A DNA stretch of 64,000 bases from Kineosporia babensis (GTDB lineage: Bacteria; Actinomycetota; Actinomycetes; Actinomycetales; Kineosporiaceae): NCBI RefSeq assembly GCF_021129305.1, contig NZ_JAJOMB010000006.1:248001-312000 (forward strand). The letters run 5' to 3'. Under the pieces are notes generated by a model that made no database searches, was not told the DNA's origin, and saw only the letters and a list, made by a program, of their open reading frames with translations. Every line of letters starts with the position of its first letter. The first letter of the stretch is position 1. A program made the position numbers and the translations under genes. This document shows positions 34,947 to 63,820 of this stretch, one piece after another.

Positions 34947-34949
34947 GCC

Positions 34950-37900: not shown

Positions 37901-38339
37901 GAACGCCGACGACCGTCTCGGGCGGGTGGTGTTCCCCGGTGACGGCGAGCTGACCTGGACTCACGTGTTCGCCGAGTCCGAGAACCCCAAGTCGCCGCTG
38001 CGGCGGGGTCTGGTGAGCTCGCAGCCGCTGCCCAGGGCCGGCTCCGAGGGCTGGCAGTTCTTCCTGACCTCGCTCGCGGACCGTGAGCCAGGGCAGCCCG
38101 GCGAACGAGTGGACGAGCGGGTCGCCTCACCCGCGGTCGCCGTACTGAACGGGGCCACCGGCTGGTACGCCAGCCTGGACGAGGCCGGGCAGTTGCGGGT
38201 GCATCCCGGGAAGCCGCGCTACCTGAAGGCCTCCAGTCTTCGCGAGATGGACGACAACCCCGGCGCGGTCTTCTCCACCCCGATGAGTGCCCGGGGCGGC
38301 GAGGACGAGTCCTCCGACCCGTTCAACGGTCTGCAATGA
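34950..38339 (+). CDS. Hsp70/actin-fold ATPase, SrfB-like
   Basis: A 1129-residue protein three bases after the GTPase gene. An N-terminal domain (about 1-145, beta-rich) and a low-complexity linker precede an Hsp70/actin-type ATPase. Phosphate-1 motif AAIDFGTTACTVTLW is near 178, phosphate-2 VVDIGGGTTDIALF near 490, and an adenosine-type motif LTGRASSLDLVREVFG near 746. The size and the very long insertions match SrfB proteins rather than DnaK; there is no classical substrate-binding C-terminus. The remaining 350 residues look beta-rich. It probably forms a nucleotide-dependent complex with the dynamin-like partner; function is not established. Confidence 0.82.
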   Translation: MALEIGFSSPNLSAGSDPQQGLQLPMIAGRVCLPDLTLTTTDGRAAYLDHLAVTGAGESATATALAESWQASDRAINPVLRIPATWTAVAGPGPVELSIVVSYREQDIAGNWLRPEMTPPARRTVRVAWGPGGAAGKPATPEPAEATTATQNETAASEPESVPDPSVGTARPSTEVHHGIAAIDFGTTACTVTLWDEQHARQPVLPESQAQLLRDETIALLSAKGPLTLNGAWEQLTQRVAATVQPSGGDLQSLVAALSRGTTSNSNLLQETLKALESQSQYTARPSLRAWLTESLHRMYAQTLAAPAPEHWQLWLVPFGVKDEPQVPATVSVSRTSKKVEQVGQPIDDPDGEKVVLPSLKRHFGRDEAREVAELGLATDEVIAEAIGWLIGRTNEFILGTEGLDHHRLNRVVCTYPTAMPGAARRRLQQLVASAAGVNEVNIRYDEAIAAGFYFLMRDIGSDRELGIEALWARMRPTENPGVRTENLLVVDIGGGTTDIALFTMNLQDATPHLADVPPHRSGRYYRISPELRGSNGWANRGGDYLTLCVFHLLKATVADALLRSYPQEATDAGHWLDERMKQLSKIGEWWDDQSSRYRPGSLIEAEFTHLKDNLWKKGSITGPAHRAVVEQVVPTRWRDASEEPAAQRRRSAFNQLWRLAEAAKIGPLGNGRDYTVPQPELASLIGFLTGQTLTADVGRLRTEPLGATTFAEVAGVLLKKLANLAAALVNGRFEGSPQRIDRLVLTGRASSLDLVREVFGEVFAESAARHGLIEWDPTALQVDQRGAKSATSIGAVWAERMRLLSRRPENAEDVARAGNLEIRVEVDNVFQTLPATFTVTRSSSYETVFQANQEFEVESGDRRRLEYPLKSVPRVLNIHRKIDGDDPMLWGSFDPAQTARNEGYEPAIPSPDAKESDDLWLARIQSRVEINPHLELTLHLWNVGDNPALSGPAQVVDGPATPLTAEKPTNLLDLARRLRVRIGNADDRLGRVVFPGDGELTWTHVFAESENPKSPLRRGLVSSQPLPRAGSEGWQFFLTSLADREPGQPGERVDERVASPAVAVLNGATGWYASLDEAGQLRVHPGKPRYLKASSLREMDDNPGAVFSTPMSARGGEDESSDPFNGLQ

Positions 38340-39373
38340 GCACGTCCGGGTTGTCGCTGGAGGAGGCCCTGAGAGATCTGCTGTTCCAGCAGGACCTGCG
38401 GGTGGGCGTGGTGGTGCGCAGCCATCTGGTCGGGCTGCGCGCCGCCCTCGCCGAAGAGGCTTTGCCGCCTGCTCATCCGAGCCGGGACGCCCTGGACACA
38501 GTGCAGCGGGAACTGGCGAAACTGCTCGGGTTGCCCTCGGGCAACAGGGTAAGGGTCGGGCCACCCCCGGAACCCGCAGAGAGCCCCGTAGGCCAGCCGT
38601 TCGACCCACCACCACCGCTGCCGACCCAGCCGATTCAACCTGTCCCGAGCGTCCCGCCCGGTGTGCTGGCCCTGCGCCAGTCAGCAGCCGAGGCCGAACG
38701 TCTGCGCGCCGACATCCCCTCCTCCGGACCCTGGACCGACATCCCCAGCCTGGACGAGCGTCTGGCGATCGTGGCGGCGCAGCCGGAAGGCGCGCCCGGG
38801 CTGCGGTTGTCTCCTGACGCTGCGATCCCCGGCGACATCGCCGACACCTTGCAGCTACGGCCCGGAGACTACGGCCCGGACCACCGCCTGGCCGTGGCCG
38901 GCGCCCAGCTCCTCGCCCTCGCCCCGCTCGATCCGGACCTGCGCGACCACCTGCCGTCGTCACCGACGTCATCCGCCCGAAACCCGGCCCGTCCGGCCGA
39001 CCTGGCCGCTCTACGGGCCGATCTGATGGCCCGCCTGTACGAGTACGCGGCCCAGACCGAACCCCAGGCGAAGCTGCTGGGCATGCTCCGCGTGGCCGAG
39101 GCTCTGAGCTCGGTGCGGCATAACTTCACCCCGCCGGACGACAGCTGGTGGTCGGCCTGGCACCGGCGGGTCCAGGACGAGGTCTACGAGTTCTCCCGGC
39201 ACGTGAGCGGCGCCCAGCTGACCGTGCTGTCCGGGCCGTACCAGAGCATCAAGGACCAGACCGACAACGACGCCCTGGTCAGCGGCCCGCGCGGCACCGT
39301 CTACGCCTGCCTGCGGATGTGGGCCAGGATCGGCGAGAAAACCTATCCAGGGCGGGTTCTCGTTGCCGGATGA
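38336..39373 (+). CDS. Protein of unknown function in the dynamin/Hsp70-like operon
   Basis: A 345-residue soluble protein that I do not recognise. It overlaps the Hsp70-like gene by 4 bases (ATGA). Residues 1-65 look helical (EEALRDLLFQQDLRVGVVV); a Pro-rich linker spans about 75-110; the rest is mixed, with a helix-rich segment (LMARLYEYAAQTEPQAKLLGMLRVAEAL) and a W-rich patch (DDSWWSAWHRR). No catalytic motif or membrane segment is visible. Its fixed position between the SrfB-like protein and the kinase suggests an adaptor joining the two halves of the operon. Confidence 0.8.
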   Translation: MSTSGLSLEEALRDLLFQQDLRVGVVVRSHLVGLRAALAEEALPPAHPSRDALDTVQRELAKLLGLPSGNRVRVGPPPEPAESPVGQPFDPPPPLPTQPIQPVPSVPPGVLALRQSAAEAERLRADIPSSGPWTDIPSLDERLAIVAAQPEGAPGLRLSPDAAIPGDIADTLQLRPGDYGPDHRLAVAGAQLLALAPLDPDLRDHLPSSPTSSARNPARPADLAALRADLMARLYEYAAQTEPQAKLLGMLRVAEALSSVRHNFTPPDDSWWSAWHRRVQDEVYEFSRHVSGAQLTVLSGPYQSIKDQTDNDALVSGPRGTVYACLRMWARIGEKTYPGRVLVAG

Positions 39374-41201
39374 ACACCGGCGACTGAGCGCGCACCAGTA
39401 TCTGGCCGCCCTGAAAGACCCGGCCGGAGCCTTCACCGATGCCCGGCTGCGCACCGCCCGCCCCGTGCGCGGAACCCGCAACCAGCCGGTCCAGCGCCTG
39501 GGACAGCACGCCGTCGTCTACCGGCTGAAAGTACCGGACGGGACGCAGTACGCCCTGCGCTGCTTCTTCCGGCCCAGCGACGCGCACCAGGACCGCTACC
39601 GGATCCAGGCCCGGCTGAAGCACAGCCATCAGGCCCGGCAGGTACCGGAACTGACGGTCTGGGAGTACCTGCCGCAGGGCATGACGGTCGAGAACGAGCC
39701 CACCCCGGTCCTGCTCGGGCCCTGGCGCAGCGGGGTCAGCCTGGACACCGCGATCCAGCAACGCCTGGACCAGCCGCAGCAACTGCGCATCATCGAGGCC
39801 CGCTGGGTGGACCTGATCCGGCGTCTGGACAGTTCCGGCATCGTCCACGGCGACCTGCAGCACGGCAACGTCCTGGTCGATCCGGCCGTGGACGGGTCCG
39901 GCCTGTACTTGGTCGATCCGGACAGCCTGTGGACGCCGGCGCTGGCCCGGGTGCCGCCCCCGGCCGAGGCCGGGCATCCGAACTACCGTCATCCGCAGGC
40001 CTCCGTGGCCCAGTGGGGGCCCGGCGGCGACCGCTTCAGCAGCCACGTGATCGACCTGTCGCTGCTTGCCCTGGCCGCGCAGCCGCACCTGTGGGAGAGG
40101 TACCACGACGACCACAATCTGATCTTCACCGCCGAGGACCTGCAGGCCCCCGGAACCACCCGGCTGTGGCGGGAACTGTCCGACTCGCCCGACCGGACGG
40201 TCCGGGAACGAGCAGCCCGGCTGGCCGAGTTGTGCCGGGCCTCGGCCCAGAAACTCCCGCTGCTGATCAGCACCGTCAAACCGGTCGAGCAACCGCCCGT
40301 CACGGTGAACGCCACCCCACCACCCGCACCACCGCAACCGGTTCCGAAGACCCAGCCCGAACGTCCTCAAGTCAAAAGCCCACCCGTCGAATCCCCGCCC
40401 CCAGCGGCCATCGCCCGCCCCACCCATCTGATCCTGCTCCTCGTCCTGGCCATCGGCCTCGACCTGCAGCAGTACGCCTCCGAGGACCTCGCACCCGGAG
40501 CGCCGGGCGTCGTGCGAGCCACCGCCGACGGACTCTGGATCGTCAGCCTGGCCGGAATCCTGATCTGGCCACGCGCCCGGCCGGTGCTGGCCGCGCTGGC
40601 AGGTGGGGCCGCCTTCGCCCTCGTCGTGATGAGCGTGGGCTGGTTCGCCGTCGTGCTGCCGCTGCTGGATCCGGACGAGATCGCCCAGGGAGAAGAGTTC
40701 TACGCCGGGGCAGCGGTCTGCTACCTGATCGCGCTCGCAAGTTTCTTCCTGGTCTGGAAACACGCCCCGCAGCGTCCGGCCGAGCGCAGCGTCACCCGGC
40801 TGTATCTGGCCGGGGCAGTAAGCATTCTGCTGGCCGAAGGGCTCCTGCTCGACCAAGGAGCCGACGTCGTCCACGGCGGATGGCACACCCCGCTGGGCTA
40901 CCCCTCCGGCGTACACCCCGTAGCCCAGGTGATCGGGGTCAGCGCGGTGGTGGGCGCCGTGCTGATGCTGTTCGCCCTCGCCGCTCTGGTCCGGCGCAGC
41001 CTGGCCTGGCTGATCGCGATGACCACCGTCCTCGCGACCCGTCTGGTGGTCACGGAAGACCACTGGGAATGGCGGGAACTGGCCGACCCGTGGGACCGGA
41101 TCGCCCCACTGGCCTACTGGGTGGCGATAGCCGCCTTCGTCCTGTGCGCAGTGACCGTTCCGCTGGCCCGCCGCAGCGCCGAACCTCAAGGAGCACCGTG
41201 A
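39363..41201 (+). CDS. Membrane-anchored protein kinase-like protein (TerY-P-type triad kinase)
   Basis: A 612-residue protein; the open frame allows a TTG start at 39363, overlapping the preceding gene by 11 bases. A protein-kinase-like domain spans about 35-300 with catalytic loop HGDLQHGNVLV (about 162) and LVDPDSLW where DFG is expected. The usual VAIK lysine appears as YALRCFF, with Arg. A Pro-rich linker (about 315-350) is followed by seven or eight membrane helices (about 353-605). Kinase, vWA and PP2C genes in a row are the composition of the TerY-P triad. The Arg for Lys change raises the chance of weak or altered kinase activity. The start codon is uncertain. Confidence 0.8.
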   Translation: MPDEHRRLSAHQYLAALKDPAGAFTDARLRTARPVRGTRNQPVQRLGQHAVVYRLKVPDGTQYALRCFFRPSDAHQDRYRIQARLKHSHQARQVPELTVWEYLPQGMTVENEPTPVLLGPWRSGVSLDTAIQQRLDQPQQLRIIEARWVDLIRRLDSSGIVHGDLQHGNVLVDPAVDGSGLYLVDPDSLWTPALARVPPPAEAGHPNYRHPQASVAQWGPGGDRFSSHVIDLSLLALAAQPHLWERYHDDHNLIFTAEDLQAPGTTRLWRELSDSPDRTVRERAARLAELCRASAQKLPLLISTVKPVEQPPVTVNATPPPAPPQPVPKTQPERPQVKSPPVESPPPAAIARPTHLILLLVLAIGLDLQQYASEDLAPGAPGVVRATADGLWIVSLAGILIWPRARPVLAALAGGAAFALVVMSVGWFAVVLPLLDPDEIAQGEEFYAGAAVCYLIALASFFLVWKHAPQRPAERSVTRLYLAGAVSILLAEGLLLDQGADVVHGGWHTPLGYPSGVHPVAQVIGVSAVVGAVLMLFALAALVRRSLAWLIAMTTVLATRLVVTEDHWEWRELADPWDRIAPLAYWVAIAAFVLCAVTVPLARRSAEPQGAP

Positions 41202-52358: not shown

Positions 52359-52410
52359 AGGTTCCGGGAGCGACAGGAGGGGCGGACGGGATCAGCGTTT
52401 GCGGTGATCG

Positions 52411-52426
52411 GTGACGTCCGGGTCAC
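52411..52426. promoter_or_regulatory. Candidate CRP/FNR operator GTGAC-N6-GTCAC
   Basis: A perfect 5-bp inverted repeat with a 6-base spacer sits about 50 bases upstream of the CRP/FNR-family gene. It closely resembles the classical TGTGA-N6-TCACA layout of cyclic-nucleotide receptor sites. It may be autoregulatory. No other copy was searched for systematically. Confidence 0.55.
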
Positions 52427-52478
52427 AGATGGCAAACAGGGCTCGGACGGTGCTGCCCCGGTGCGTATGGTCGTGGTC

Positions 52479-53162
52479 ATGTCGCAGGAGGCGATCTGGC
52501 CGGCGAAGAGTTTTCTGGGGCGCCTGCCGGGGGAGATGCGTAACTCGATCCTGTCCCGGGGGCATGCCCGGCACTACGAGGACGGGCAGGAGGCGATCGT
52601 CGAGGGCACCGAGTCGCCCTTCGTGCTGATCGTCCTGTCCGGCTGGTTCAAGATCGTCGCGACCATGCAGACCGGTAAGGAGGCGCTGGTCGCGGTCCGG
52701 GCCGGCGGGGACCTGATCGGCGAGCTCGGGGTCATGGAGGACACTCCGCGGGTGGCCACGGTGCGGGCCAGCGGGCCGGTGGACGTGCGGGTGATCAGCC
52801 GGCTCGACTTCCGCGAGCTGCTGGCCGAGATGTCCGAGGTCGCGGCGGCGGTGAGCGGGGTGATCGCGAGCCGGCTGCGGGTGGCCACGCGCCGGCAGGT
52901 CGAGTTCACCACCTGCCCCAGCGATGTCCGGGTGGCCCGGATCCTGCTGGAGCTGATGGTGGCGCACGGCCGGCCGGTCCGCGGCGGAGTGATGATCGAC
53001 GTCGCGCTCACCCAGCCGGAACTGGCCGGGCTCTCCGGCTGCACCGAGCCGACCGTGCACCGGGTCCTGACCGTGCTGCGCCGGCAGAAGGTGGTGGAGA
53101 CCGGCTACAAGCGGGTGGTGGTGCTCAACGAGGACGAGCTGGCCCGGCGCGCCGAGGGCTGA
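52479..53162 (+). CDS. CRP/FNR-family transcription regulator with cyclic-nucleotide-binding domain
   Basis: A 227-residue regulator: a cNMP-binding beta roll (about 15-125) with a phosphate-binding cassette GELGVMEDTPRVATVRA that keeps the Arg used for the cyclic phosphate, a long helix, and a winged helix (LTQPELAGLSGCTEPTVHRVL, about 170-190). There is no cysteine cluster for FeS binding. Start choice between ATG 52479 and 52467 is open; neither has a strong ribosome-binding site. It converges, with 16 bases between stops, on an operon holding a nucleotide-cyclase-like gene and a PycTM-like gene, so it might answer the same nucleotide; that link is inference. Confidence 0.9.
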   Translation: MSQEAIWPAKSFLGRLPGEMRNSILSRGHARHYEDGQEAIVEGTESPFVLIVLSGWFKIVATMQTGKEALVAVRAGGDLIGELGVMEDTPRVATVRASGPVDVRVISRLDFRELLAEMSEVAAAVSGVIASRLRVATRRQVEFTTCPSDVRVARILLELMVAHGRPVRGGVMIDVALTQPELAGLSGCTEPTVHRVLTVLRRQKVVETGYKRVVVLNEDELARRAEG

Positions 53163-53178: not shown

Positions 53179-53685
53179 TCACCACGCCAGGACGGCCAGA
53201 GCGAGGGCGGGGAGTGCGGCCAGGCCGAAGAGGGCCAGACCGGCGTTCAGATAACGGTTCTTGGTCACCGCGATCCGGGCGATCAGTTCGGAGACCGCCC
53301 AGACCTCGGCGGCCAGCACCTGCGGATCGTGCAGGGTCGGGGGTGTGCCGAGCGCGGCCACTCCCGGGTAGGAGAAGCGGTTGGCGGTGCGCGCGTGCGG
53401 CATCCGGGGCCGCAGCGCCTGCCCCAGACAGACCGCCGAACCGGCGGCCAGAAGGAACAGCAACCCGCCGAAGATCCAGGTGAGCACTCCGCGTCCGCCG
53501 CCCCCGACGTCCTTCAATTGGCCGCCCTGACTGATCAGGACGCTGAACACCCCGGCCTCGATCGCCGCGAGAATGTTGGCTTTGCCGTCGGCCTGCTGCA
53601 CGGTCTGCTGAAAATGGTTGAGCGCGGCCAGCGCCACTTCCAGGTGGGACTGGCCGGTGAGCTCCTCGGCCACGGTGTCGGTCAT
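53179..53685 (-). CDS. PycTM-like (DUF5706) membrane protein, candidate Pycsar-type effector
   Basis: A 168-residue protein with the segment QQADGKANILAAIEAGVF (about 31-47), the conserved ADxKA start of the DUF5706/PycTM family. A membrane helix follows at about 67-88 (LTWIFGGLLFLLAAGSAVCLG) and a last one at about 145-167. A helix with ELIARIAVTKNRYLN precedes the last span. In Pycsar systems a transmembrane effector of this family is switched on by cUMP or cCMP made by a cognate cyclase and damages the membrane. It has a strong GGAGGAAGG ribosome-binding site and ends a four-gene minus-strand operon that begins with a cyclase-like gene. Assignment is from motif memory, not a search. Confidence 0.75.
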   Translation of the reverse strand: MTDTVAEELTGQSHLEVALAALNHFQQTVQQADGKANILAAIEAGVFSVLISQGGQLKDVGGGGRGVLTWIFGGLLFLLAAGSAVCLGQALRPRMPHARTANRFSYPGVAALGTPPTLHDPQVLAAEVWAVSELIARIAVTKNRYLNAGLALFGLAALPALALAVLAW

Positions 53686-53694
53686 GCCTTCCTC

Positions 53695-54567
53695 CTACGC
53701 GTAGTCCTGGTCGTACGGCTCGTCCTCCGGCGGCGGAGGCGGGCCCGGCCGGGAGGAACCGTTCAGCTGCGCCGGGGGTGGTCCCTCGTCGGCCGACAGA
53801 GCGCTCAGGTCACCGAGCAGACGCTGGCGGACGGCGGCCAGGTCCACATCCTGCAGACCGTTGTTGCTCTGCAGCAGGCGCAGCAGCTCCAGCCGGGTGT
53901 CCCGGTCGATCTGCCGGTTCTTGGACACCAGGTCGATCACGGCCCGGGAGTCGCCCGGGTTGTTGGCGATGTGCACGGCCAGGCCCGAGGGGTCACCCCT
54001 CATCGCCAGGTTCACCGCTTCCACCTTGCGCGCGCCGATCTCGTCCTCGACCATCTGCTGACCGAGGCGGGAATCGATCGTCAGCATGACGAAACAGGTC
54101 TGGATGGTGATGCCCTCGGGCATCCGGCCGGTGCGGGCCCCGAACCGCGCGTTGATCGCGGCCGTCGCCTCGTGCGCCTGGTGCGCCTCGAACTGTGATG
54201 ACAACGGCCACATCAGCGATCGCAGCCGCTCGGTCAGGAACTGCTGGCCGTCGCCGAGGTTCTGCGAGACGGCCAGGCCGGGCCGGTCGACGAACCAGCT
54301 CACGTTCACCTCGGCGCCGAAGAAGAACGCACTCCTCAGCGCGGCCAGCTGGTAGTAGAACGTGGAGCGCTTGACCGTCACGTCGACCAGGTACCGGCGC
54401 CGGATGGTCAGCCGCTCCGACATCGAAGGGGTGCGGCCCTCGGCCACGACAGAACCGTCGCCGCTCGCGTAGACCACCGTATGGCCGGGCACCGCCGGGC
54501 CCAGAGCCAGGCCGTTCACCGATTCCTCGCGCACCAGAGGCAGACTCCGCGGGGGCTCGTGCATCAT
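53695..54567 (-). CDS. Cytoplasmic protein with possible SPFH/band-7-like domain
   Basis: A 290-residue protein starting at ATG 54567, overlapping the NTPase stop, with AAGGAG upstream. After about 70 beta-rich residues, the segment EVNVSWFVDRPGLAVSQNL through ITIQTCFVMLTIDS (about 90-185) reads like an SPFH domain: a V-x-D-P-like strand pair, a long helix, then G-I-x-V-x-x. Following helices and a disordered Pro/Asp-rich tail (about 255-290) complete it. No transmembrane segment is visible. SPFH proteins scaffold membrane microdomains, which would suit a partner of the membrane protein encoded 9 bases downstream. The fold call is tentative and alternatives are open. Confidence 0.5.
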   Translation of the reverse strand: MMHEPPRSLPLVREESVNGLALGPAVPGHTVVYASGDGSVVAEGRTPSMSERLTIRRRYLVDVTVKRSTFYYQLAALRSAFFFGAEVNVSWFVDRPGLAVSQNLGDGQQFLTERLRSLMWPLSSQFEAHQAHEATAAINARFGARTGRMPEGITIQTCFVMLTIDSRLGQQMVEDEIGARKVEAVNLAMRGDPSGLAVHIANNPGDSRAVIDLVSKNRQIDRDTRLELLRLLQSNNGLQDVDLAAVRQRLLGDLSALSADEGPPPAQLNGSSRPGPPPPPEDEPYDQDYA

Positions 54568-56735
54568 GCCGCTATCTCCTTCTCCACCCAGGCCCCCAGA
54601 TGGGGTGCCGTGCCGTCGGTTCCGTTCCAGCTGCGGGCGGTGGCCCGCAGGATCTGCCGGGTCCGGGGGTCGAACGCGACCTGCTGCAGCATCCGCTGCA
54701 TCTCCCGTCGGGCCTGCGGATCTGCGTCGCACAACCGGGCCCAGTAGGTCAGCACGCTGCGGGCCCGGGTACTCAGGTCGGAGTTCAGGGTGTGCCACCA
54801 GAGCCAGACGATCTGATGGCGCCGGGTGCTGTCGGCGATGGTCAGCTGCAGCAGCGTCGGCCACCGGCCGTCCCCGTCGCTCACCAGGTCCCAGGCGATC
54901 AGCAGGAAGAAGAACCGGCCGGTCCAGGCCATGTCGTCCTTGCGCAGGTTGGCCCACTGGTACATCTGGTTCACGACCTCGCCGAAGTACAGCTGGGGGT
55001 CGTGCACCACCAGGGTGGCCAGGCCGTCGGCCACCTCCCGGCGGACCGCGTACGACTCGTCGCGGGCCAGCCGCAGCAGCGCGGCCGGCAAGAGCTCGTC
55101 CCGCTCGATCAGCGCGGGCGCCTCGTCCCGAACGGCGCCCAGCGCGTAGATGCGCGCGGCGGTGCAGCGCAGGTTCGGATCATCGGCCCGCTCCCACTCC
55201 TCGGTCATCAGCCGCAGGGCCGGGCGCATCTGGGCATCCCGGGCGGCGAAGGTCAGGGCGGTGGCGGCGGCATCACGCAACCGTTCGTGCTGCGACTTGG
55301 CCCAGTTCAGCAGCAGCAAGCCGTACATGTGGTCGAAGGCCTGCACGGTCAGGGCCCCGACGGCGGTAGCCGCCCGGGAACGGATCCCGGCCGCCGCCCG
55401 CGCGCCGAGATGGTCCAGCCAGTGCACCAGCGCGATCCGGCTCTCCCGGTACTCCGTCCACACATGCAGGAACAGGCGGGGACCGAAATCCGCCTGGGCG
55501 TAACGGATCACCTCGATGTCGACCTTGCCGTAGCGGGTCCAGAACAGAGCCGGCTCGATCACCGCACCCAGTTGCTGCATCTCCCGCCGCCGGGAGGTGC
55601 CGAACGGATCGGCCGGGCGCTCGCGGCGGTCGCGGTCCGACCGGAACGGGTCGAGCTCGCCGAGCAGCCGGGTGGCGGCGTCGGCGATCACCTCGTGCGG
55701 CTGCCCCTGCAGCACGGCCAGAGCGATGGCCAGGCAGCGGGTACGCAGATCGGGCAGTTCGGCGAACCAGTCGGCGACGTCGGACTCCCCTCGGCCCTTC
55801 AGGGACGGTTCGAGCAGGGCCCGCAGCGAGGGCGCCTCGGGTGAGCACCGGGCCAGCTGATCGGCGATCTCACTCGCGGTGGCCAGCCGGGTCTGCGGTC
55901 CGAGGTGATCGGCGACGATGCCGGCCAGGTCGGGGTGAGCCAGCAGGCCGGGCAAGCGGTCTCGGCCCACCGCCCCCAGCCGGTGTTTGAGGACGGCGGT
56001 GAGCACCTCCATCCGCTGCGGGCCGGGCCCGAAGTCGACGTGCCCGACGAGCGGGCCGGACTGGGGCAGCCGGGACAGGTTGCTGACGGTGATCACCAGG
56101 CGGATCTTGCGGTCGCGCAGCTGGACGGCGAGCGCATCGAGGTCGAACGCGCGCATCGGGGCCGCCGGGGACTCGCCCGGTTCCTCGCTGAGGATCAGCG
56201 CGGCACAGGTCTCGGGCAGGTCGCCGACGGACAGGTCGCCGAGCCGGGTGGCCGGGTCGAGTTTGTGGATCTGCTCGGGCTCGGACCGGTTGAGCGCATG
56301 GACGGCCGCGGCGGTGCGCCCGCTGCCCAGCGGGCCGGTGACCACCGTGATCGGGAACTCCTGTACGGCCTGGCTCAGCCGGGTCGCGCCGGGACTGCCG
56401 ACGAAAGCCAGAACAGAGACTTCTCTTTCGTCGTCCGACAGTTCGTAGAGCCGGATCCTGGTGTCGTGACGGCCGGTGATGACCGTGACGTTCTTGTCCC
56501 GGCCGACGTAGTCGTTACCGACGTAGCGGTGCCAGGCCCGGCCGGCCTCCTGGCGCTGGTGTTCGTTGTCGGTCTTCTGTCCGGGTGAGTGGGTGCTGTC
56601 CTCGCTGAAGGCCTTGTCGAAGCTGTTCTTCTCGGCCGGTTTCGGCTTCTCGGCGGCGGCCGGGGCCTGGGCCTCGGGTTCTTTGGCCGGCGCGGGCTGG
56701 GGTTGTGCCGGCTTCTCGGAGTCGTTGTCAGCCAT
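54564..56735 (-). CDS. P-loop NTPase with helical-repeat C-terminus (STAND-like), N-terminal homotypic motif
   Basis: A 723-residue protein. Residues 1-65 are Pro/Ala/Glu-rich and disordered; residues 72-88 hold the motif VGNDYVGRDKNVTVITG shared with the upstream cyclase-like protein. A P-loop GPLGSGRTAAA follows near 127, with Arg in place of the Walker A Lys, and a possible Walker B strand CAALILSEEP near 178. From about 320 to the end it is helical, with HEAT-like pairs (LRDAAATALTFAARD, LRCTAARIYALGAV, VRREVADGLATLVV). The layout fits STAND-type sensors: N-terminal signalling motif, switch NTPase, repeat sensor. ATG 56735 overlaps the cyclase gene by 8 bases; GTG 56753 is an alternative. 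Confidence 0.75.
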   Translation of the reverse strand: MADNDSEKPAQPQPAPAKEPEAQAPAAAEKPKPAEKNSFDKAFSEDSTHSPGQKTDNEHQRQEAGRAWHRYVGNDYVGRDKNVTVITGRHDTRIRLYELSDDEREVSVLAFVGSPGATRLSQAVQEFPITVVTGPLGSGRTAAAVHALNRSEPEQIHKLDPATRLGDLSVGDLPETCAALILSEEPGESPAAPMRAFDLDALAVQLRDRKIRLVITVSNLSRLPQSGPLVGHVDFGPGPQRMEVLTAVLKHRLGAVGRDRLPGLLAHPDLAGIVADHLGPQTRLATASEIADQLARCSPEAPSLRALLEPSLKGRGESDVADWFAELPDLRTRCLAIALAVLQGQPHEVIADAATRLLGELDPFRSDRDRRERPADPFGTSRRREMQQLGAVIEPALFWTRYGKVDIEVIRYAQADFGPRLFLHVWTEYRESRIALVHWLDHLGARAAAGIRSRAATAVGALTVQAFDHMYGLLLLNWAKSQHERLRDAAATALTFAARDAQMRPALRLMTEEWERADDPNLRCTAARIYALGAVRDEAPALIERDELLPAALLRLARDESYAVRREVADGLATLVVHDPQLYFGEVVNQMYQWANLRKDDMAWTGRFFFLLIAWDLVSDGDGRWPTLLQLTIADSTRRHQIVWLWWHTLNSDLSTRARSVLTYWARLCDADPQARREMQRMLQQVAFDPRTRQILRATARSWNGTDGTAPHLGAWVEKEIAA
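56472..56522 (-). other. Homotypic (possibly amyloid-like) motif in the NTPase N-terminus
   Basis: Codes residues 72-88, VGNDYVGRDKNVTVITG. It matches residues 229-245 of the cyclase-like protein at 12 of the 13 positions VG-DY-(V/I)-(G/A)-RDKN-x-T-(V/I), allowing conservative changes. Short G/N/D-rich beta-prone motifs shared between a signalling protein and a STAND NTPase are known to drive homotypic amyloid-type assembly in bacteria. Confidence 0.7.
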
Positions 56736-57489
56736 GGAAGGTCGCGTTGGCACCGCTGGAATGAATCGTGGTGTTCTTGTCCCGCGCTATGTAATCTCTG
56801 CCGACGCTGACGTGAGTCGGCGGGTGATCGGCCTCGGGCTCGGCCGGCGTGGGAAGAGGCGGATCGGGTAGGGCCGAATCCATCGGCAGGGAAGGTGTTT
56901 CCAGGCCGGGCAGCTGGACGTGCACCGTGCCGCTGCGCTCCTTGGCCTGGAACGGCGCCGACCGGAAGCTGTGCAGATCGGACCGGCCGGACTTCTCGAG
57001 CTTGTGGTACCAGTCGTCCGGGATCCCCAGGACCAGGTAGGCCTCGGGCACCTCGGTGAGAAGAGCTCGTAGCAGCGGCAGGTCGACGATCCGGCAGGCC
57101 TCGTCGATCGGGTCCCCGGACCAGCCGTCGAAGCCCTGGCCCGGCTGGTCCCGGCTGATCTCGCCGATGTTCAGGGCCAGCCGCAGCCGGATCGTGTGCG
57201 CCGCCGAGGCCCCCAGCGCGTGCAACCGCAGCTGCTCCCGCAGGGTGAGTGCGAACCGGGCGGTGAGCTGGTCCCGGGTGGTGGTGGCCTCGAGCAGCAC
57301 GGCGGCCCCGTCGCCCCGGTCGATGATGTCGATCAATTGCTTCCCCGGATCGATTCCGGAATCGCCGAGAGCGGCCAGAAGGATGTCCTTCAATGATCGG
57401 CGCAGCATTCTCTTGACGAAGTCGGTTCGGGCGCTCGAGGCTTCGATGTCGACCACGGCGATGAATGCCGTGCGCGTGGTTTCGGGCAT
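56728..57489 (-). CDS. Class III nucleotide-cyclase-like protein with C-terminal homotypic motif
   Basis: A 253-residue protein; residues 5-190 follow the class III cyclase pattern. First metal Asp is D14 in AVVDIEASS, second D60 in DRGDGAAVLL; LRLALNIGEI (103-111) matches the RIGIHTGE strand. DPIDEACRIVD (126-136) matches the VNxAARL segment, keeping the Arg (R133) while Asn is Asp (D129). After a Pro-rich linker the last 30 residues hold VGRDYIARDKNTTIHSS, the same motif as in the downstream NTPase. It is the first gene of an operon ending in a PycTM-like protein, so synthesis of a cyclic nucleotide signal is the leading idea. A binding-only cyclase homologue is the alternative. Confidence 0.75.
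   Translation of the reverse strand: MPETTRTAFIAVVDIEASSARTDFVKRMLRRSLKDILLAALGDSGIDPGKQLIDIIDRGDGAAVLLEATTTRDQLTARFALTLREQLRLHALGASAAHTIRLRLALNIGEISRDQPGQGFDGWSGDPIDEACRIVDLPLLRALLTEVPEAYLVLGIPDDWYHKLEKSGRSDLHSFRSAPFQAKERSGTVHVQLPGLETPSLPMDSALPDPPLPTPAEPEADHPPTHVSVGRDYIARDKNTTIHSSGANATFHG
56755..56805 (-). other. Homotypic (possibly amyloid-like) motif at the cyclase-like C-terminus
   Basis: Codes residues 229-245, VGRDYIARDKNTTIHSS, near the C-terminus after a Pro-rich linker. The partner copy is at 56472-56522. The amino acids agree better than the codons do, which suggests the pairing is maintained by selection on the protein. Confidence 0.7.
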
Positions 57490-57946: not shown

Positions 57947-60568
57947 ATGAAGAAGCGCTTCATTGCCGGTCGCCGCTTACTGATACCGAGCGTTGTCGCG
58001 GTCCTGGTTGCCTTGCCGCTCGCGGGGGTGGCCACGGCCGGCCCGGGGCCGGCCCGGCTCGCGGCGGAGGCGGCGGAGGAGATCGAACCAGCGGTGATGG
58101 ATGCCGTGGTCCTGGTGGACCAGTCCGGCAGTCTCTCCGACGAGGACGTGGCCCGGGAGAGCGAAGCCGTCTCGGCGATCGCGCAGAGCGGGCTCAGCGC
58201 GCGAAGCCGGGTCACCGTAGTGGGTTTCGGCAGCAACAACGGCGGGCAGAGCGCCACCACCACCTTCTGCCCGCCGACGATCCTGCGGGACTCCGCCGCC
58301 CGGCAGTCGCTGGCCGACTGCTCGGACACGATCGCCCGGCGCACTGCTGAGGAGGGGAACGACACCGATCACGCCGCCGCGGTGGGTCAGGCGATCGATG
58401 TCCTGCAGCAGGATTCGCCGAAGGGTGCGATCAAGGCGGTGTTCTTCCTGACCGACGGGCGCCTGGACGTACGCAACAGCCCGAACTACGGCGCCGCGCA
58501 GGACCGGAACGCGGCCGCCCAGGTGCAGCTGGACAAGCACCTGGCCACGGCCAAGGACCAGGGGATCCAGGTCTGGCCGCTGGGTTTCGGTGCGGAGATC
58601 GACGAACCGGCTCTGCAGGCCCTGGCCGCGGGCGGTGCTCAGGGGGACGTCCGGTGCCAGGCGAAGCCGCAGGCCCGGGTGGTGCGCTCCTCGGCCGACG
58701 TGCAGTGGACGCTGGTGAAGGCGGCCGCCGGGGCCACCTGCTCCTTCGTCGAGGATCCGGACACCGGGAAGATCGACCCGAACGGCACCGAGGACCTCAA
58801 GGTCTCGATCTCCCCGCTGGCCACCAACGGCTCGATCATCGTCGCCAAGGGCGATCCCGCGATCAAGGTCACCTACCTGAAGCCGGGCGGTGGCGAGGTG
58901 ACTTCCAGCGGGCAGCAGGGGGAATCGACGTACGAGCGCAGCGGTGACAACACCAGGACCGACACGCTCAGCATCGTCAATCCCGATCCCGGCGAGTGGA
59001 CGGTACGCCTGGAGGCGCCGAAAGGGATTGAGAGGCAGCAGATCGGGGCCACCGTGGTCTGGCAGGGCGCGCTGCGGACGTTCTTGGTCACCGATCCGCC
59101 CTCGCCCAAGCCGGGCGAGGAGTTCACGGTGTCCATGTCCCTGCTTACCCGCAAGGGCCGGATCACCGACGCGGACCTGCTGACCGGGATGTCGGTCGGG
59201 GTGAAGGCGCAGGCTGCCGGTGGCGCTGAGACAGATGTGCCGATGAGTGACAACGGGAAGGGCTCGGACCCCAAGGGTTCCGACGGTGAGTACACCGGCA
59301 CGATGACCGCACCCGACCAGGAGGGCGCGCTCGGCCTGCGGGGCTCGGTCACCGGGGCCGGCGTCTACAACACCGACGTCCCGCTGGAGTTGATCGTCGC
59401 TGCCGACGTCATTCGTCCGCAGGTGCGGTTCGAGTTCGACACGCCCGATCAGACCTGGGCCGGTGAGACCATCGCGGGCACGCTCAAGGTGAACAATCCG
59501 GGCGAGACGCGGGACGTGCAGATCCAGGCCGAGGACCCGACCGGGACGCTTCAGGCCGGGGTGAACCCCGGTGGTGCGTTCTCGTTGCCGTCGGGAGACA
59601 GCGAACGTGACGTGGAGCTGAGCGTGCTCCCGGAAAGTAGTAACGGTGAAGCAGCTCTCAGCGTCAACCTGGTCGATGCCGCCGGTCAGCAGGTCTACGG
59701 CAACACCCTGCTGTCGGTCGAGGTGCGGGACGAGCCCAGTTGGATCGAGAAGAACCGCACGCTGCTGATCGCGCTGTTCCTGCTCGTGGTGCTGGCTGGG
59801 CTGGCGCTGCTCGTCGCCCGGCAGGCCCGCCGGCGGCGGCTGGACGTCCGTAAGCTCACGGTACTCCTGAAGACCGAGGACGGCTCGCAGTTCAGCCTCA
59901 AGGCTCGCACGGGATGGTCCGACCAGTTCAGCTTCGTGATCCGGGCGCCGGAAGACCTGTCCCGGCGGCTGTCGTTCCCGAGCCCGGGCGATGCGGAGAT
60001 CTACCGCCTGCGCCGGGCCGCGCGGAACGTGGTGCGGCTGAGGACGCCTCAGGGCGAGCAGATCAACCTGCAGAACGGGAAGTTCGAGACGCTGCCCGAA
60101 TCCCCGGAGCTGAGCATCGGGGTTCAGGACGACCGCCGGCGGGTCCCGGCCAAGAAGCCGCGAAAGAACAAGCCCGAGCCGGTCACTCCCGATCGGGGGT
60201 CGGCGGACATCTACGACGGCTACCCGGGCGGCGATGACGTTTACGGCGCAGCCGCAGACCCCTATGGCAGCTCCGATTCTCAGGGCCCGAGCGGTTCTGG
60301 GCGGGGAGGGCGGACCGAGAAGGACACCGACCCCTTCGGTTCCGATTCCTACACCGGTGCGTCCAGCGTCCATAGTTCTGAACCTTACGGCGGCGACCCC
60401 TTCGGCGGCGACCCGTACGGCGGAAACCCCGGCGGGAGTGACCCGTACAGCGGAAGTTCTTACGGGAGTGACCCGTACGGAGGCGACGATCCGTACGGCA
60501 GCCGGCCGAAAACGTCTTCAGGCCGGTCGACCGCGGCCACGCACGACAGCGACGACCCGTATGCCTAG
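57947..60568 (+). CDS. Secreted, membrane-anchored vWA-domain protein with DPYGG-repeat tail
   Basis: An 873-residue protein. A signal peptide or anchor (RRLLIPSVVAVLVALPLAGVATA) precedes an extracellular vWA domain with MIDAS DQSGSLS (D58) and FLTDGRLD. Beta-sandwich regions follow (about 280-600), then one membrane helix (TLLIALFLLVVLAGLALLVA, about 605-625) and a basic stop-transfer. The cytoplasmic part ends in a low-complexity tail rich in DPYGG/DPFGG units (about 755-845). A rare TTA codon is codon 11 (57977-57979). A tubulin-like gene follows 51 bases downstream; vWA and FtsZ/tubulin-like pairs are known in bacteria, where a membrane-remodelling role has been proposed. Confidence 0.88.
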   Translation: MKKRFIAGRRLLIPSVVAVLVALPLAGVATAGPGPARLAAEAAEEIEPAVMDAVVLVDQSGSLSDEDVARESEAVSAIAQSGLSARSRVTVVGFGSNNGGQSATTTFCPPTILRDSAARQSLADCSDTIARRTAEEGNDTDHAAAVGQAIDVLQQDSPKGAIKAVFFLTDGRLDVRNSPNYGAAQDRNAAAQVQLDKHLATAKDQGIQVWPLGFGAEIDEPALQALAAGGAQGDVRCQAKPQARVVRSSADVQWTLVKAAAGATCSFVEDPDTGKIDPNGTEDLKVSISPLATNGSIIVAKGDPAIKVTYLKPGGGEVTSSGQQGESTYERSGDNTRTDTLSIVNPDPGEWTVRLEAPKGIERQQIGATVVWQGALRTFLVTDPPSPKPGEEFTVSMSLLTRKGRITDADLLTGMSVGVKAQAAGGAETDVPMSDNGKGSDPKGSDGEYTGTMTAPDQEGALGLRGSVTGAGVYNTDVPLELIVAADVIRPQVRFEFDTPDQTWAGETIAGTLKVNNPGETRDVQIQAEDPTGTLQAGVNPGGAFSLPSGDSERDVELSVLPESSNGEAALSVNLVDAAGQQVYGNTLLSVEVRDEPSWIEKNRTLLIALFLLVVLAGLALLVARQARRRRLDVRKLTVLLKTEDGSQFSLKARTGWSDQFSFVIRAPEDLSRRLSFPSPGDAEIYRLRRAARNVVRLRTPQGEQINLQNGKFETLPESPELSIGVQDDRRRVPAKKPRKNKPEPVTPDRGSADIYDGYPGGDDVYGAAADPYGSSDSQGPSGSGRGGRTEKDTDPFGSDSYTGASSVHSSEPYGGDPFGGDPYGGNPGGSDPYSGSSYGSDPYGGDDPYGSRPKTSSGRSTAATHDSDDPYA

Positions 60569-60619
60569 GCCAGTCAAACCCTTTTCCTGGCAGCACCGAT
60601 CGAGCGGAGACGATCACGC

Positions 60620-63600
60620 ATGACCATGAGCCTCTATCAGCCGGTCCTTTTCGTCGGGTTGGGTGGTACCGGCGGTCACGTCGGTGTCGAGCTGGAACGT
60701 CGCCTGCGCGAGGAGATCTGCGGCCCGGACGGCGCCGCGTTCGCCGAGCAGTGGAAGCAGAGTTCGCTGCTGCCCTACCAGCTGCCCTCCTGCGTCCAGT
60801 TCGTCTACGCGGACGTGAACCAGGGCGACCTGGACCAGTTGCCCCTGCGCAGTGGCCTGGGGCCCGAGCATCTGCCCGCGGTGCACCGGACCGCGCATTT
60901 CGTCCGCAACCTGGTGCCCACCGTGGAGACCTACCCCCGGGTGGCCAGCAATCTGCGGTTGTCCTCGGGGGCGACCGTGAACTCCTGGCTGCCGCCCGAG
61001 CCCGGTGAGCCCAAGGTCTCGCCGCTGAAGCGCGGGGCCGGTCAGTTGCCGACGGTCGGGCGGGCGGCGCTGTTCGAGACCTTTCAGGACGGTGTGGGCC
61101 CGGCGATCGGTGATCTGAGCCGGGCGATCGGCAACCTGAGCAACAGCATCGAGGACCTGGACCACCTGGGCGGCCGGTGGAACGGGACGGTGGACGTCTT
61201 CGTTGCGTTCTCGGTGGCCGGAGGGACCGGGGCCGGGATCTTCTACGACTACCTGCACCTGATCGGCAAGGTCTTCAACGACACCGGCCTGAAAGCCCAG
61301 ATCTATCCGTTGGTTCTGATGCCGTCGGCGTTCACCGAGGGGCTGGGCGGAGGCCGTCCGGCGCAACTGAACGCCGGACGTTCGTTGCTGGATCTGTTCC
61401 GGTTGATCGACGAGCAGAACGGTGGGGACGCCCAGCGCAACCTGCGCGGCGAGAACCTGGACGGGCCGGGGATCGTCGATCCGGACGACGTGGCCGTGCG
61501 CTACCCGAAGGAGGGCGAGGTGCGGCTGGAACCGTCCACCGTCCAGACCGCCTTCCTGTTCTCGTTGCCGGTCGGGGCGCAGAAGGAGGACCTGCACCGC
61601 TCGATGGTCTCGCTGATGCTCTCCCTGGTGGGCTCGGAACTGGACGAGAAGAAGTCCGGCCACAACGCCCGGGTGGGTGACGATTTCCAGACGTTCTCGG
61701 CGAGTTTCATCAACGGCGGGGTGGACCGGGAGATCGACTCCTCGAACGGGATCGGCGGCTGCGGGGTCTCCACGGCGCTGGTGGCCTCGATGACGGTGCC
61801 CGAGGACGAGCTGGCCGACTTGGTGGCCGGCCGGCTGCTGCGGCATGCGGTGATCGAGCTCTCGGCGCCGTTGCCGGGCCGGGTCGAGCAGAACCGTCAG
61901 CCGATCGAGCGGTTGTTCGGCTCGTCCGGGATCGGGGAGATCCTGACCCGGCCGGTGCGGGGCGTGCATGAGCAGCAACCGGTCTCGGGAGCCAAGGACA
62001 TCACCGCGGCGCTGACCGACCGGGCCCGGGAGATGCAGGACGAGCTGGCCGAGCTGCGACTGCGGCTGCATCGGGAGATACCCCGGATGGTCGGCGATTT
62101 CGAGCCTCGCCGGGCCATCACCGAACTGCTGGGCGAGCTCGACGTGTTCCGGGTGCAGCGGGTGGCGGCCGGTCATCCCCGGCTGGCGGCGGAGATGGAC
62201 AAGCGGGGCGCCGAGGGGATGATGACGCTGCGGGTGGCCGAGCCGCCGCGCGCGGACCTGATGGAGACACCACCGCCGATCCCGCCTCTGCACGACCGGT
62301 TCCTGAGCCGCGTGAAGTGGGACGACGAGGAGCCGGTGGCCGCGCGCGAGGCCCAGGACCAGTGGTTCGCCTGGCGCACGCGCACCATCTGGAGCGCCAT
62401 CTGGAAGGAGTTCCGGCCGCAGTGGTCGATCACCTGGTCCACCGCCGCCACCCCGCTCAAGGGCATCACCGACGAGCTGTGGCGCCAGGCCCAGGCCGAC
62501 GAGCAGCGCTTCCAGGCCCGGGCCGAGAGCCTGGCCCGCACCCGGGTCGGGGTCTCGTACCTGCTGCCGCCCAACGGCGATCTGGAGCGCTTCTACGTCC
62601 GGGTCCGGCAGAACATGATCGACACCCGGGTGGACGACGGTCTGCTGCGCCCGGCCGCCCGCGAGGCCGAGCTGATCACCCAGCTGATCGGCGCCGAGGG
62701 CTGGCGCCAGGCCTACGACAAGACCCGCGACCAGAGCGCCGAGCAGATCGTCCTGCAACTGCGCGGGCGGGTGAAGGCCGAGGTCAAGAAGTTCTTCCGG
62801 GCCCGCCCACGGGGCCGGCAGCCGCTGCTGGCGCCGATCAGCGAGCGCTTGGCGGCCGCGGCCGGGGTCGCCCCGGGCGGGCAGTCGCTGCCGGAGGAGG
62901 ACATCGCCGACTTCCAGGCCAAGCTGGCCGGTCTGGTGCCCGGCGCCTTCAACCCGCAGGGCCCGGCCGGGCGGCCGGTGAAGGTGCTGATCTCCTACCC
63001 GGCCGCGGCCAAGAACGAGCAGATCGAGCAGTACCTGCGCGGTCAGGTGTTCCTGCCGGAGGGGGCCAAGGTCCAGCCCGAGTTCCGGCGCACCTCGGCC
63101 GAGACCATCTCGGTGGTGTTGTTCCGCACCGCGATGGGGGTCACCGAGGTCCGTGAAGTACGGGAGGTCCTGCGTACCTGGGCCGGAGCCCAGCACCGGG
63201 AGCAGCCCCGCGACTTCCTGAAGTGGCGCCAGCGCACCGGGTTCGACTTCTCCTACCTCGCCACCCGGGAGAAGCACCGGGTGATGATCCTGCACCGGAT
63301 CCTCAACGCGATGTGGAACGGGCGGGTGCGCACCAGCGGTGATCCGCGATCGCCCGAGGAGGTCAGCATCGAGATGGACGGCGGCACGACGATGATCCTG
63401 CCGCTCAAGCCGCTGGACCGGGCCTCCTCCTGGGCCAGCCTGCTGCGGGCCTACGAGGTGTGGACCCTGGACGACGACGCGGTCCGCAGCCGCTTCTGCG
63501 ACCAGCTGATGAACGAGTTGCCCAACGGCATCTCGGCCCGGCCGGACAAGCCCAGCGACCTGTACCTGACCTTCCGGGACGTCTCGCTCTCGCAGCCGGA

Positions 63601-63820
63601 CCTGATCACCGAGCAGCGCGAGAAGCTGCCGGCCGGCAGCCGGGGGATGGCCGACAGCGCCCTGAGCTTCTGGCAGAACACGCTCAAAGCCGCTCTGGAC
63701 ACGCCGTTCCGGGGCGTCGCCTCCCCGGTCCGGGACACCCTGCGGCATCTGGAGGACTCCTTCGCCGACCGCGACGAGGCGGGCCCGCGGCCCGAGCAGG
63801 ACGGGAGCCTGAAGTGGTGA
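60620..63820 (+). CDS. Tubulin-superfamily-like protein (FtsZ-like, large)
   Basis: A 1066-residue protein. The N-terminus PVLFVGLGGTGGHVGVELERRL carries the first nucleotide-binding loop, and VFVAFSVAGGTGAGIFYDYLHL (about 193-214) matches the tubulin signature GGGTGSG; FVYADVN near 57 fits the T3-side strand. These are the hallmarks of the large bacterial tubulin-like family seen next to vWA proteins. The remaining 700 residues are helix-rich with no motif I recognise. It probably binds GTP and polymerises beneath the membrane, with the vWA protein as anchor. ATG 60620 has a weak GGAGA upstream. The next gene starts inside its stop. Confidence 0.82.
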   Translation: MTMSLYQPVLFVGLGGTGGHVGVELERRLREEICGPDGAAFAEQWKQSSLLPYQLPSCVQFVYADVNQGDLDQLPLRSGLGPEHLPAVHRTAHFVRNLVPTVETYPRVASNLRLSSGATVNSWLPPEPGEPKVSPLKRGAGQLPTVGRAALFETFQDGVGPAIGDLSRAIGNLSNSIEDLDHLGGRWNGTVDVFVAFSVAGGTGAGIFYDYLHLIGKVFNDTGLKAQIYPLVLMPSAFTEGLGGGRPAQLNAGRSLLDLFRLIDEQNGGDAQRNLRGENLDGPGIVDPDDVAVRYPKEGEVRLEPSTVQTAFLFSLPVGAQKEDLHRSMVSLMLSLVGSELDEKKSGHNARVGDDFQTFSASFINGGVDREIDSSNGIGGCGVSTALVASMTVPEDELADLVAGRLLRHAVIELSAPLPGRVEQNRQPIERLFGSSGIGEILTRPVRGVHEQQPVSGAKDITAALTDRAREMQDELAELRLRLHREIPRMVGDFEPRRAITELLGELDVFRVQRVAAGHPRLAAEMDKRGAEGMMTLRVAEPPRADLMETPPPIPPLHDRFLSRVKWDDEEPVAAREAQDQWFAWRTRTIWSAIWKEFRPQWSITWSTAATPLKGITDELWRQAQADEQRFQARAESLARTRVGVSYLLPPNGDLERFYVRVRQNMIDTRVDDGLLRPAAREAELITQLIGAEGWRQAYDKTRDQSAEQIVLQLRGRVKAEVKKFFRARPRGRQPLLAPISERLAAAAGVAPGGQSLPEEDIADFQAKLAGLVPGAFNPQGPAGRPVKVLISYPAAAKNEQIEQYLRGQVFLPEGAKVQPEFRRTSAETISVVLFRTAMGVTEVREVREVLRTWAGAQHREQPRDFLKWRQRTGFDFSYLATREKHRVMILHRILNAMWNGRVRTSGDPRSPEEVSIEMDGGTTMILPLKPLDRASSWASLLRAYEVWTLDDDAVRSRFCDQLMNELPNGISARPDKPSDLYLTFRDVSLSQPDLITEQREKLPAGSRGMADSALSFWQNTLKAALDTPFRGVASPVRDTLRHLEDSFADRDEAGPRPEQDGSLKW

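Follow-up and report, generated by a model that had tools for sequence, protein, structure and literature searches.

A conserved actinobacterial gene unit in Kineosporia babensis in which a cyclase-like protein and a STAND-like NTPase carry matching motifs

Introduction

What might a nucleotide cyclase-like gene be doing in an operon that holds not only a PycTM-like membrane protein, but also a P-loop NTPase and a protein resembling the SPFH (band-7) family? The question is raised by positions 53,179 to 57,489 of a 64,000-nucleotide stretch of the Kineosporia babensis genome (GCF_021129305.1, contig NZ_JAJOMB010000006.1, positions 248,001 to 312,000), referred to here as the window; the host genome has a size of 9.4 Mb. 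A sequence-only reading of the window had proposed a four-gene, minus-strand, Pycsar-like operon encoding a cyclase-like protein with both metal-binding Asp residues (CYC), a STAND-like NTPase (NTP), an SPFH-like protein (SPFH) and a PycTM-like protein (PYC). In the present study we find that the actual unit is not confined to these four genes and includes a Crp-type cyclic-nucleotide-binding regulator (CRP), that it is recurrently, but not always, joined to a von Willebrand A (vWA)/tubulin module or to a vWA-PP2C-kinase triad, and that short motifs of CYC and NTP pair and co-vary between loci. Based on these observations, we propose a receptor-controlled cyclic-nucleotide signalling module and weigh it against three alternatives.

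Conservation of the gene neighbourhood

The open reading frame coordinates confirm the four minus-strand genes and their close packing (Table 1), with overlaps of 8 bases between CYC and NTP and of 4 bases between NTP and SPFH, and a gap of 9 bases between SPFH and PYC. Reading them as an operon goes beyond chance, because homologues cluster in dozens of other loci. The neighbourhood was surveyed from three entry points, the SPFH, NTP and PYC proteins, each searched separately. The SPFH protein matched 20 of 394 genomes of the class, its own included, and among 20 stretches examined from the 19 others NTP was present in 18, CYC in 15, CRP in 13, PYC in 10, and vWA with tubulin in three. An alignment search of the named genome collection with NTP returned 37 loci, from genera including Actinomadura, Nonomuraea, Herbidospora, Actinoplanes, Parafrankia, Kitasatospora and many Streptomyces. 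Scoring a gene as present anywhere within at most 10 kb on either side, we found SPFH in 36/37, CYC in 33/37, CRP in 30/37 and PYC in 22/37 of these loci, together with PP2C (35/37), kinase (35/37), TerY-type vWA (31/37) and tubulin (4/37) proteins; three of the four loci that miss CYC start at a contig end. The PYC alignment search matched 39 of 296 class genomes at 52 places, and CRP, CYC and NTP all lay near PYC in seven of 20 further places examined, CRP only in one.

The order CYC-NTP-SPFH-PYC, contiguous and on one strand, recurs in eight other loci (L048, L049, L050, L051, L053, L055, L141 and L146). In named Streptomyces loci with PYC, this gene is placed before the convergent CRP gene instead, and in L130 (4645-6096, 3.6e-54) and L135 (6601-7974, 1.1e-54) a DUF4407 membrane protein stands between SPFH and PYC. 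Since the NTP, SPFH and PYC searches each recover the same wider neighbourhood, the unit extends beyond four genes. The core four genes do stay together across many Actinomycetes, a point on which the sequence-only reading had made its proposal depend. That reading drew its limits too narrowly on both sides and overlooked CRP, the neighbouring vWA and tubulin genes and the motif pair described below.

Among 246 genomes searched at the phylum level, NTP was matched in seven, in four cases only weakly and through the P-loop alone; the count is a lower bound, since genomes known to carry the gene (e.g. G251) were missed. On plasmids, the searches returned a single weak CYC match, known from annotation, along with three weak SPFH matches (L057-L059) with no CYC or NTP around them, and no NTP match. 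The host genome also carries a second, reduced cluster on contig C3 (50715-53275; L010 8704-11276), consisting of a divergent PycTM-like gene, a Crp-type regulator and a cyclase-like gene, with neither NTP nor SPFH found within the 18 kb read.

A co-varying motif pair in the cyclase and the NTPase

Matching 17-residue stretches occur in the CYC tail (the last ~30 residues) and in the N-terminal region of NTP (Table 1). The window pair scored 57, which none of 200 shuffles reached, and ranked its own partner first of 35. Using the best ungapped score for 35 adjacent CYC-NTP pairs, matched partners averaged 36.5, compared with 20.7 for permuted partners (standard deviation 1.25, maximum 25.4 of 5000), 11.8 for shuffled tails (standard deviation 0.75), and 10.9 and 13.1 for other parts of the same NTP; the match was significant at p<=0.01 in 31 of the 35. 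Because relatedness accounts for part of the partner effect, each own partner was further compared with the partner of the most similar other NTP, giving 23 wins, 4 losses and 8 ties (Wilcoxon p 8e-4), and 8 wins, 2 losses and 2 ties (p 0.047) in the 12 loci whose nearest relative has <60% identity. Significant matches were found in 37/49 NTP-adjacent cyclases versus 0/17 other cyclases (lowest p 0.025). Adjacency was set by hand for eleven, and for five of the 17 others, in which a local NTP was lacking, the window NTP served for comparison. Two loci entered the set twice (as L037/L062 and as L039/L067), and the contrast becomes 36/48 versus 0/15 without the duplicates. The cyclase of the NTP-less reduced cluster had no tail-motif match. 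A gapped version of the test averaged 57.3 for matched, 42.5 for permuted and 38.2 for shuffled partners; Pro/Ala-rich stretches confounded it, and we therefore relied on the ungapped test. Matching short motifs at the N-terminus of a receptor and the C-terminus of the neighbouring effector are the layout of amyloid-signalling receptor-effector pairs, and NTP and CYC have this layout, amyloid formation being putative.

Another motif (NVxGWxxV-like) that seemed to recur in SPFH, kinase and vWA proteins (L038-L043, L060 and L095) was convincing by eye and weak by strict count (SPFH 4/61, TerY-type vWA 7/41, kinase 3/49, and 0 in NTP, CYC, CRP, PYC and PP2C). We do not adopt it as a finding and keep it as a lead.

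The simplest account of the locus, an ordinary two-gene Pycsar system with NTP and SPFH as unrelated passengers, draws on the presence of both Pycsar components, a cyclase and a PycTM protein, and on the reduced PYC-CRP-CYC cluster of the same genome. It is largely refuted by the conservation counts, in which the cyclase is accompanied by NTP and SPFH more often than by PYC in the examined loci, and it also sits poorly with the coupled start/stop overlaps, the co-varying NTP-CYC motif and the failure of PycC models to match. We reject it on conservation and on the motif pair, and regard it as very improbable.

Protein families of the core unit

Class III cyclases carry two metal-binding Asp residues, a transition-state Asn and Arg, and a substrate-binding Lys. 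Window CYC has D14, D60, R133 and K183, both metal Asp are kept in 22 of 27 aligned family rows, and 16 of the 27 have Asn at the position equivalent to residue 129. A single-protein PDB search with CYC gave no useful match; with the family profile, class III cyclases in the PDB are matched (3mr7, 6e-5). The earlier cyclase-like assignment is in keeping with this match and with the retained residues, D129 being the exception.

The 168-aa protein was likewise correctly placed with DUF5706/PycTM. It matches the PADLOC PycTM model (1.7e-7, residues 15-166) and, under the Pfam cut-off, PF18967 (5.4e-4), which is matched by 24 of 25 aligned family rows (best 2.4e-22). Its hydrophobic stretches are strongest at about residues 62-93 and 145-168, and a single-protein PDB search with it returned no useful match. 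Pfam and PDB sequence searches made no SPFH assignment for the 290-aa protein. Its AlphaFold2 model (predicted local distance difference test score, pLDDT, 82.8) has SPFH/band-7 proteins or major vault protein as its 36 best structural matches, so that the predicted fold is SPFH (band-7), bearing out the original call. A hydropathy maximum of only 1.07 (19-residue window) indicates no clear membrane anchor. In the NTP family, 15 of the 27 aligned rows matched nSTAND3 (best 3.1e-5), four NACHT and nine HEAT_2, and the Walker A Lys is kept in 20/27.

A proposed alarm module and its alternatives

We propose, with a probability of about 0.5, that the locus encodes a cyclic-nucleotide alarm module controlled by a STAND NTPase, with PYC and CRP as receptors and SPFH as a scaffold. 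NTP would detect a trigger, its HEAT-type repeats serving as the sensor surface, and would then oligomerise. The N-terminal motif of NTP would recruit CYC by way of its C-terminal counterpart, in what is probably a templated assembly of beta or amyloid-like type. As class III cyclases act as dimers, clustering would be a natural switch for CYC, which would then make a cyclic nucleotide (we infer both the activity and the product). This nucleotide may act on the Crp-type regulator, changing transcription, and on PYC as a presumed ligand, leading to a damaged or depolarised membrane at which SPFH would have placed the effector. The module may have an anti-phage or stress role. A more specific version, in which an NLR-like STAND receptor templates an amyloid-type motif and switches on a cyclase that addresses both a Crp factor and an SPFH-scaffolded PycTM protein, in an undescribed actinobacterial immune cascade, is one we hold tentatively and think rather unlikely.

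A number of findings weigh against the alarm-module proposal. The P-loop of window NTP (GPLGSGRT, residues 134-141) has Arg in place of the Walker A Lys, and the protein matched HEAT_2 only, at 0.017, and no STAND model; the earlier STAND-like call therefore stands for the family, through nSTAND3, and not for the window protein itself. Four of the 35 pairs (L077, L088, L094 and L096) are without a significant motif match. PYC was undetected in 15 of the 37 NTP-fetched loci, of which at least L069 and L094 are truncated by a contig end; of the 20 PYC-fetched places, 12 had no partner within ~6 kb. Nor did Pfam recognise a cyclic-nucleotide-binding domain in PYC. To these are added the active-site losses and the chromosomal site discussed below. 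The partnerless PYC loci, with no CYC, NTP, SPFH or Crp-family match within ~6 kb, are L129, L131-L134, L136, L138, L142-L145 and L148; these 12 places mean that PycTM-family proteins occur outside this system too, and the family seems wider than Pycsar.

Active-site changes bear most directly on CYC. The window protein has Asp (D129) at the usual transition-state Asn, and the metal Asp is lost in the NTP-adjacent cyclases of L061, L089 and L091, so that cyclase activity is not universal. In each of these three loci, a further cyclase-TPR protein with both Asp residues adjoins the Crp gene. CYC might on this evidence be a non-catalytic nucleotide-binding or decoy subunit, with contacts to other proteins (SPFH, vWA) gating PYC, or a nucleotide keeping it closed rather than opening it, an arrangement to which the absence of a recognised binding domain in PYC would also be congenial. 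The Panoptes effector is reportedly held shut. Decoy cyclic nucleotides are part of that known system (PMC12657218). Retention of D14, D60, R133 and K183 in the window and of both metal Asp in most family rows, and the cyclic-nucleotide-binding-domain protein encoded alongside, speak for catalysis instead, and we judge a non-catalytic CYC to be quite improbable.

The genomic setting raises a different alternative. In one genus (g90, probably Streptomyces), four copies (L048, L049, L054 and L055) apparently lie between rpoC and rpsL, as placed by sequence for L048 and by gene sizes for the other three; an apparently fixed site beside rpoC suits a regulation or housekeeping role as well as defence. 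The same site, again placed by sequence, has CRP and PYC only in L147, perhaps as a remnant. The locus could accordingly be a physiological envelope-stress or developmental module, in which cyclase and Crp form a regulatory loop, the NTPase signals an internal cue, and the membrane is tuned by SPFH together with the PycTM-like protein. A general link to envelope homeostasis is known for SPFH proteins, and the Crp-type regulator (30/37) ranks with the more constant partners. Patchy distribution is hard to reconcile with this account: among six genomes of the genus, a close CYC is found in the window genome only (5e-168), two others having weak matches (26-29% identity) and three none. Also against it are the swapping of downstream cassettes (PYC, vWA-PP2C-kinase triad, DUF4407) and the PycTM and vWA/GTPase/tubulin modules, both typically found in conflict systems, whether known or predicted (PMC7159879). 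We consider a physiological module unlikely, if still deserving of some weight.

If the alarm-module proposal is true, Pycsar-type signalling is extended from two genes to a receptor-controlled cascade, and a STAND NTPase that recruits its partner through paired motifs offers a concrete answer to how a bacterial cyclase could be kept off until infection or stress. It would further suggest that a cyclic-nucleotide front end can be common to the vWA/tubulin and the kinase/PP2C/vWA modules, which were predicted in 2020 on sequence alone, and would put a stand-alone SPFH scaffold into a conflict-type system.

Coordinates and neighbouring genes

Table 1 Features of the unit and of its neighbours, in window positions
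Feature	Position	Strand	Remarks
CYC, class III nucleotide cyclase-like, 253 aa	56728..57489	-	D14, D60, R133, K183 kept; D129
CYC C-terminal motif HVSVGRDYIARDKNTTI, residues 226-242	56764..56814	-	pairs with NTP N-terminal motif
NTP, STAND-like P-loop NTPase, C-terminal HEAT-type repeats, 723 aa	54564..56735	-	
NTP N-terminal motif HRYVGNDYVGRDKNVTV, residues 69-85	56481..56531	-	
SPFH (band-7) fold protein, 290 aa	53695..54567	-	predicted fold
PYC, PycTM-like membrane protein, 168 aa	53179..53685	-	PADLOC and family profile matches
CRP, Crp/FNR-type regulator, cyclic-nucleotide-binding domain	52404..53162	+	PF00027 4.8e-17, PF13545 8.9e-15
VWA, von Willebrand A protein	57947..60568	+	PF00092 2.6e-9; apparent signal/membrane segments by eye only
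TUB, tubulin-like protein	60620..63820	+	PF13809 2.1e-58

The CRP gene is convergent with PYC and ends 16 bases from its stop, and on the other side the VWA gene is divergent from CYC and followed by TUB on the same strand. Beyond the window end (right flank, L097), two unassigned proteins precede a double-GTPase (PF19993, DO-GTPase2, 7.3e-7). After the vWA/tubulin/double-GTPase cluster, the same flank encodes a second CYC-family protein (375 aa, 8e-34) and a 1123-aa CHAT-domain protein (L097, 6611-11113). Homologues of vWA and tubulin come directly after PYC on the same strand in L050, L051 and L053; in L051, where PYC and SPFH overlap by 4 bases and vWA starts 6 bases past PYC, this spacing makes SPFH-PYC-vWA read as one operon. 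TUB and VWA were rejected as an obligatory part, since within the stretches fetched neither CYC nor NTP was found in 5/5 further TUB loci, which makes the tubulin module separable. Elsewhere in the window, at ~33000-41200 on the plus strand (L098 148-8202), dynamin-type GTPase-like and kinase-like proteins, recognised by eye only, possibly form another conflict-type system.

Comparison with known systems

No description of this gene set was found in the open-access literature, a scope that gives no proof of absence; DUF2652 (PMC4886424) was considered and set aside. Like Pycsar as outlined in PMC11224242, the locus has one operon encoding a class III-type cyclase together with a membrane protein of the PycTM family, and PYC matches one of the two effector types (PycTM or PycTIR) of that system. 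The PADLOC PycC model gave no match for window CYC, and only one of the 27 family rows matched, at 0.018. Membership in Pycsar, as the initial description could be taken to imply, is thus not upheld, and we do not file the locus there because its cyclase is unmatched by PycC models. It further differs by its STAND-like NTPase, SPFH protein, Crp-type regulator and cyclase-NTPase motif pair. Most likely, the locus works like Pycsar and falls outside it on the one count of its cyclase family.

GAP1-N2 GTPase-centred systems were described with a tubulin theme and a kinase/PP2C/vWA theme (Kaur et al. 2020, PMC7159879, section 29). Here, tubulin-like, vWA and double-GTPase genes occur together (57947-63820 and right flank) and adjoin the operon, and the two neighbour flavours of the unit match both themes; for GAP1-N2 itself, a candidate open reading frame in L097 was without a GAP1 Pfam match. 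Section 29, in contrast, mentions neither a cyclase nor an SPFH, PycTM or Crp partner, and the tubulin/vWA module is also found without the CYC-NTP core. Other parts of the same article report that in VMAP MoxR-vWA ternary systems cyclic nucleotide monophosphate (cNMP) cyclase domains are often coupled to Band-7 (SPFH) domains in the vWA-component proteins, and that Crp-like cNMP-recognising regulators are linked to some related systems (PMC7159879). Given these reports, the ingredients are known together in another arrangement: in those systems a single vWA protein next to MoxR and VMAP contains the fused domains, whereas the window has separate genes together with a STAND-like NTPase and PycTM, MoxR not having been searched for.

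The motif pair resembles the bacterial amyloid signalling sequence (BASS) pairs, in which short matching motifs also lie at a receptor N-terminus and at the C-terminus of a neighbouring effector (PMC12261475, PMC8086366). As presented in those sources, the effectors there have Bell domains, whereas the partner here is a cyclase and the amyloid nature of the window motifs is only putative. The nearest conceptual precedent is provided by iSTAND2 systems, in which, according to Kaur et al. 2021 (PMC8195603), pairings of a STAND-type protein with a cNMP cyclase occur infrequently, via a shared adaptor domain; the link there is an EAD or death-like domain, and in the window locus it is a 17-residue motif.

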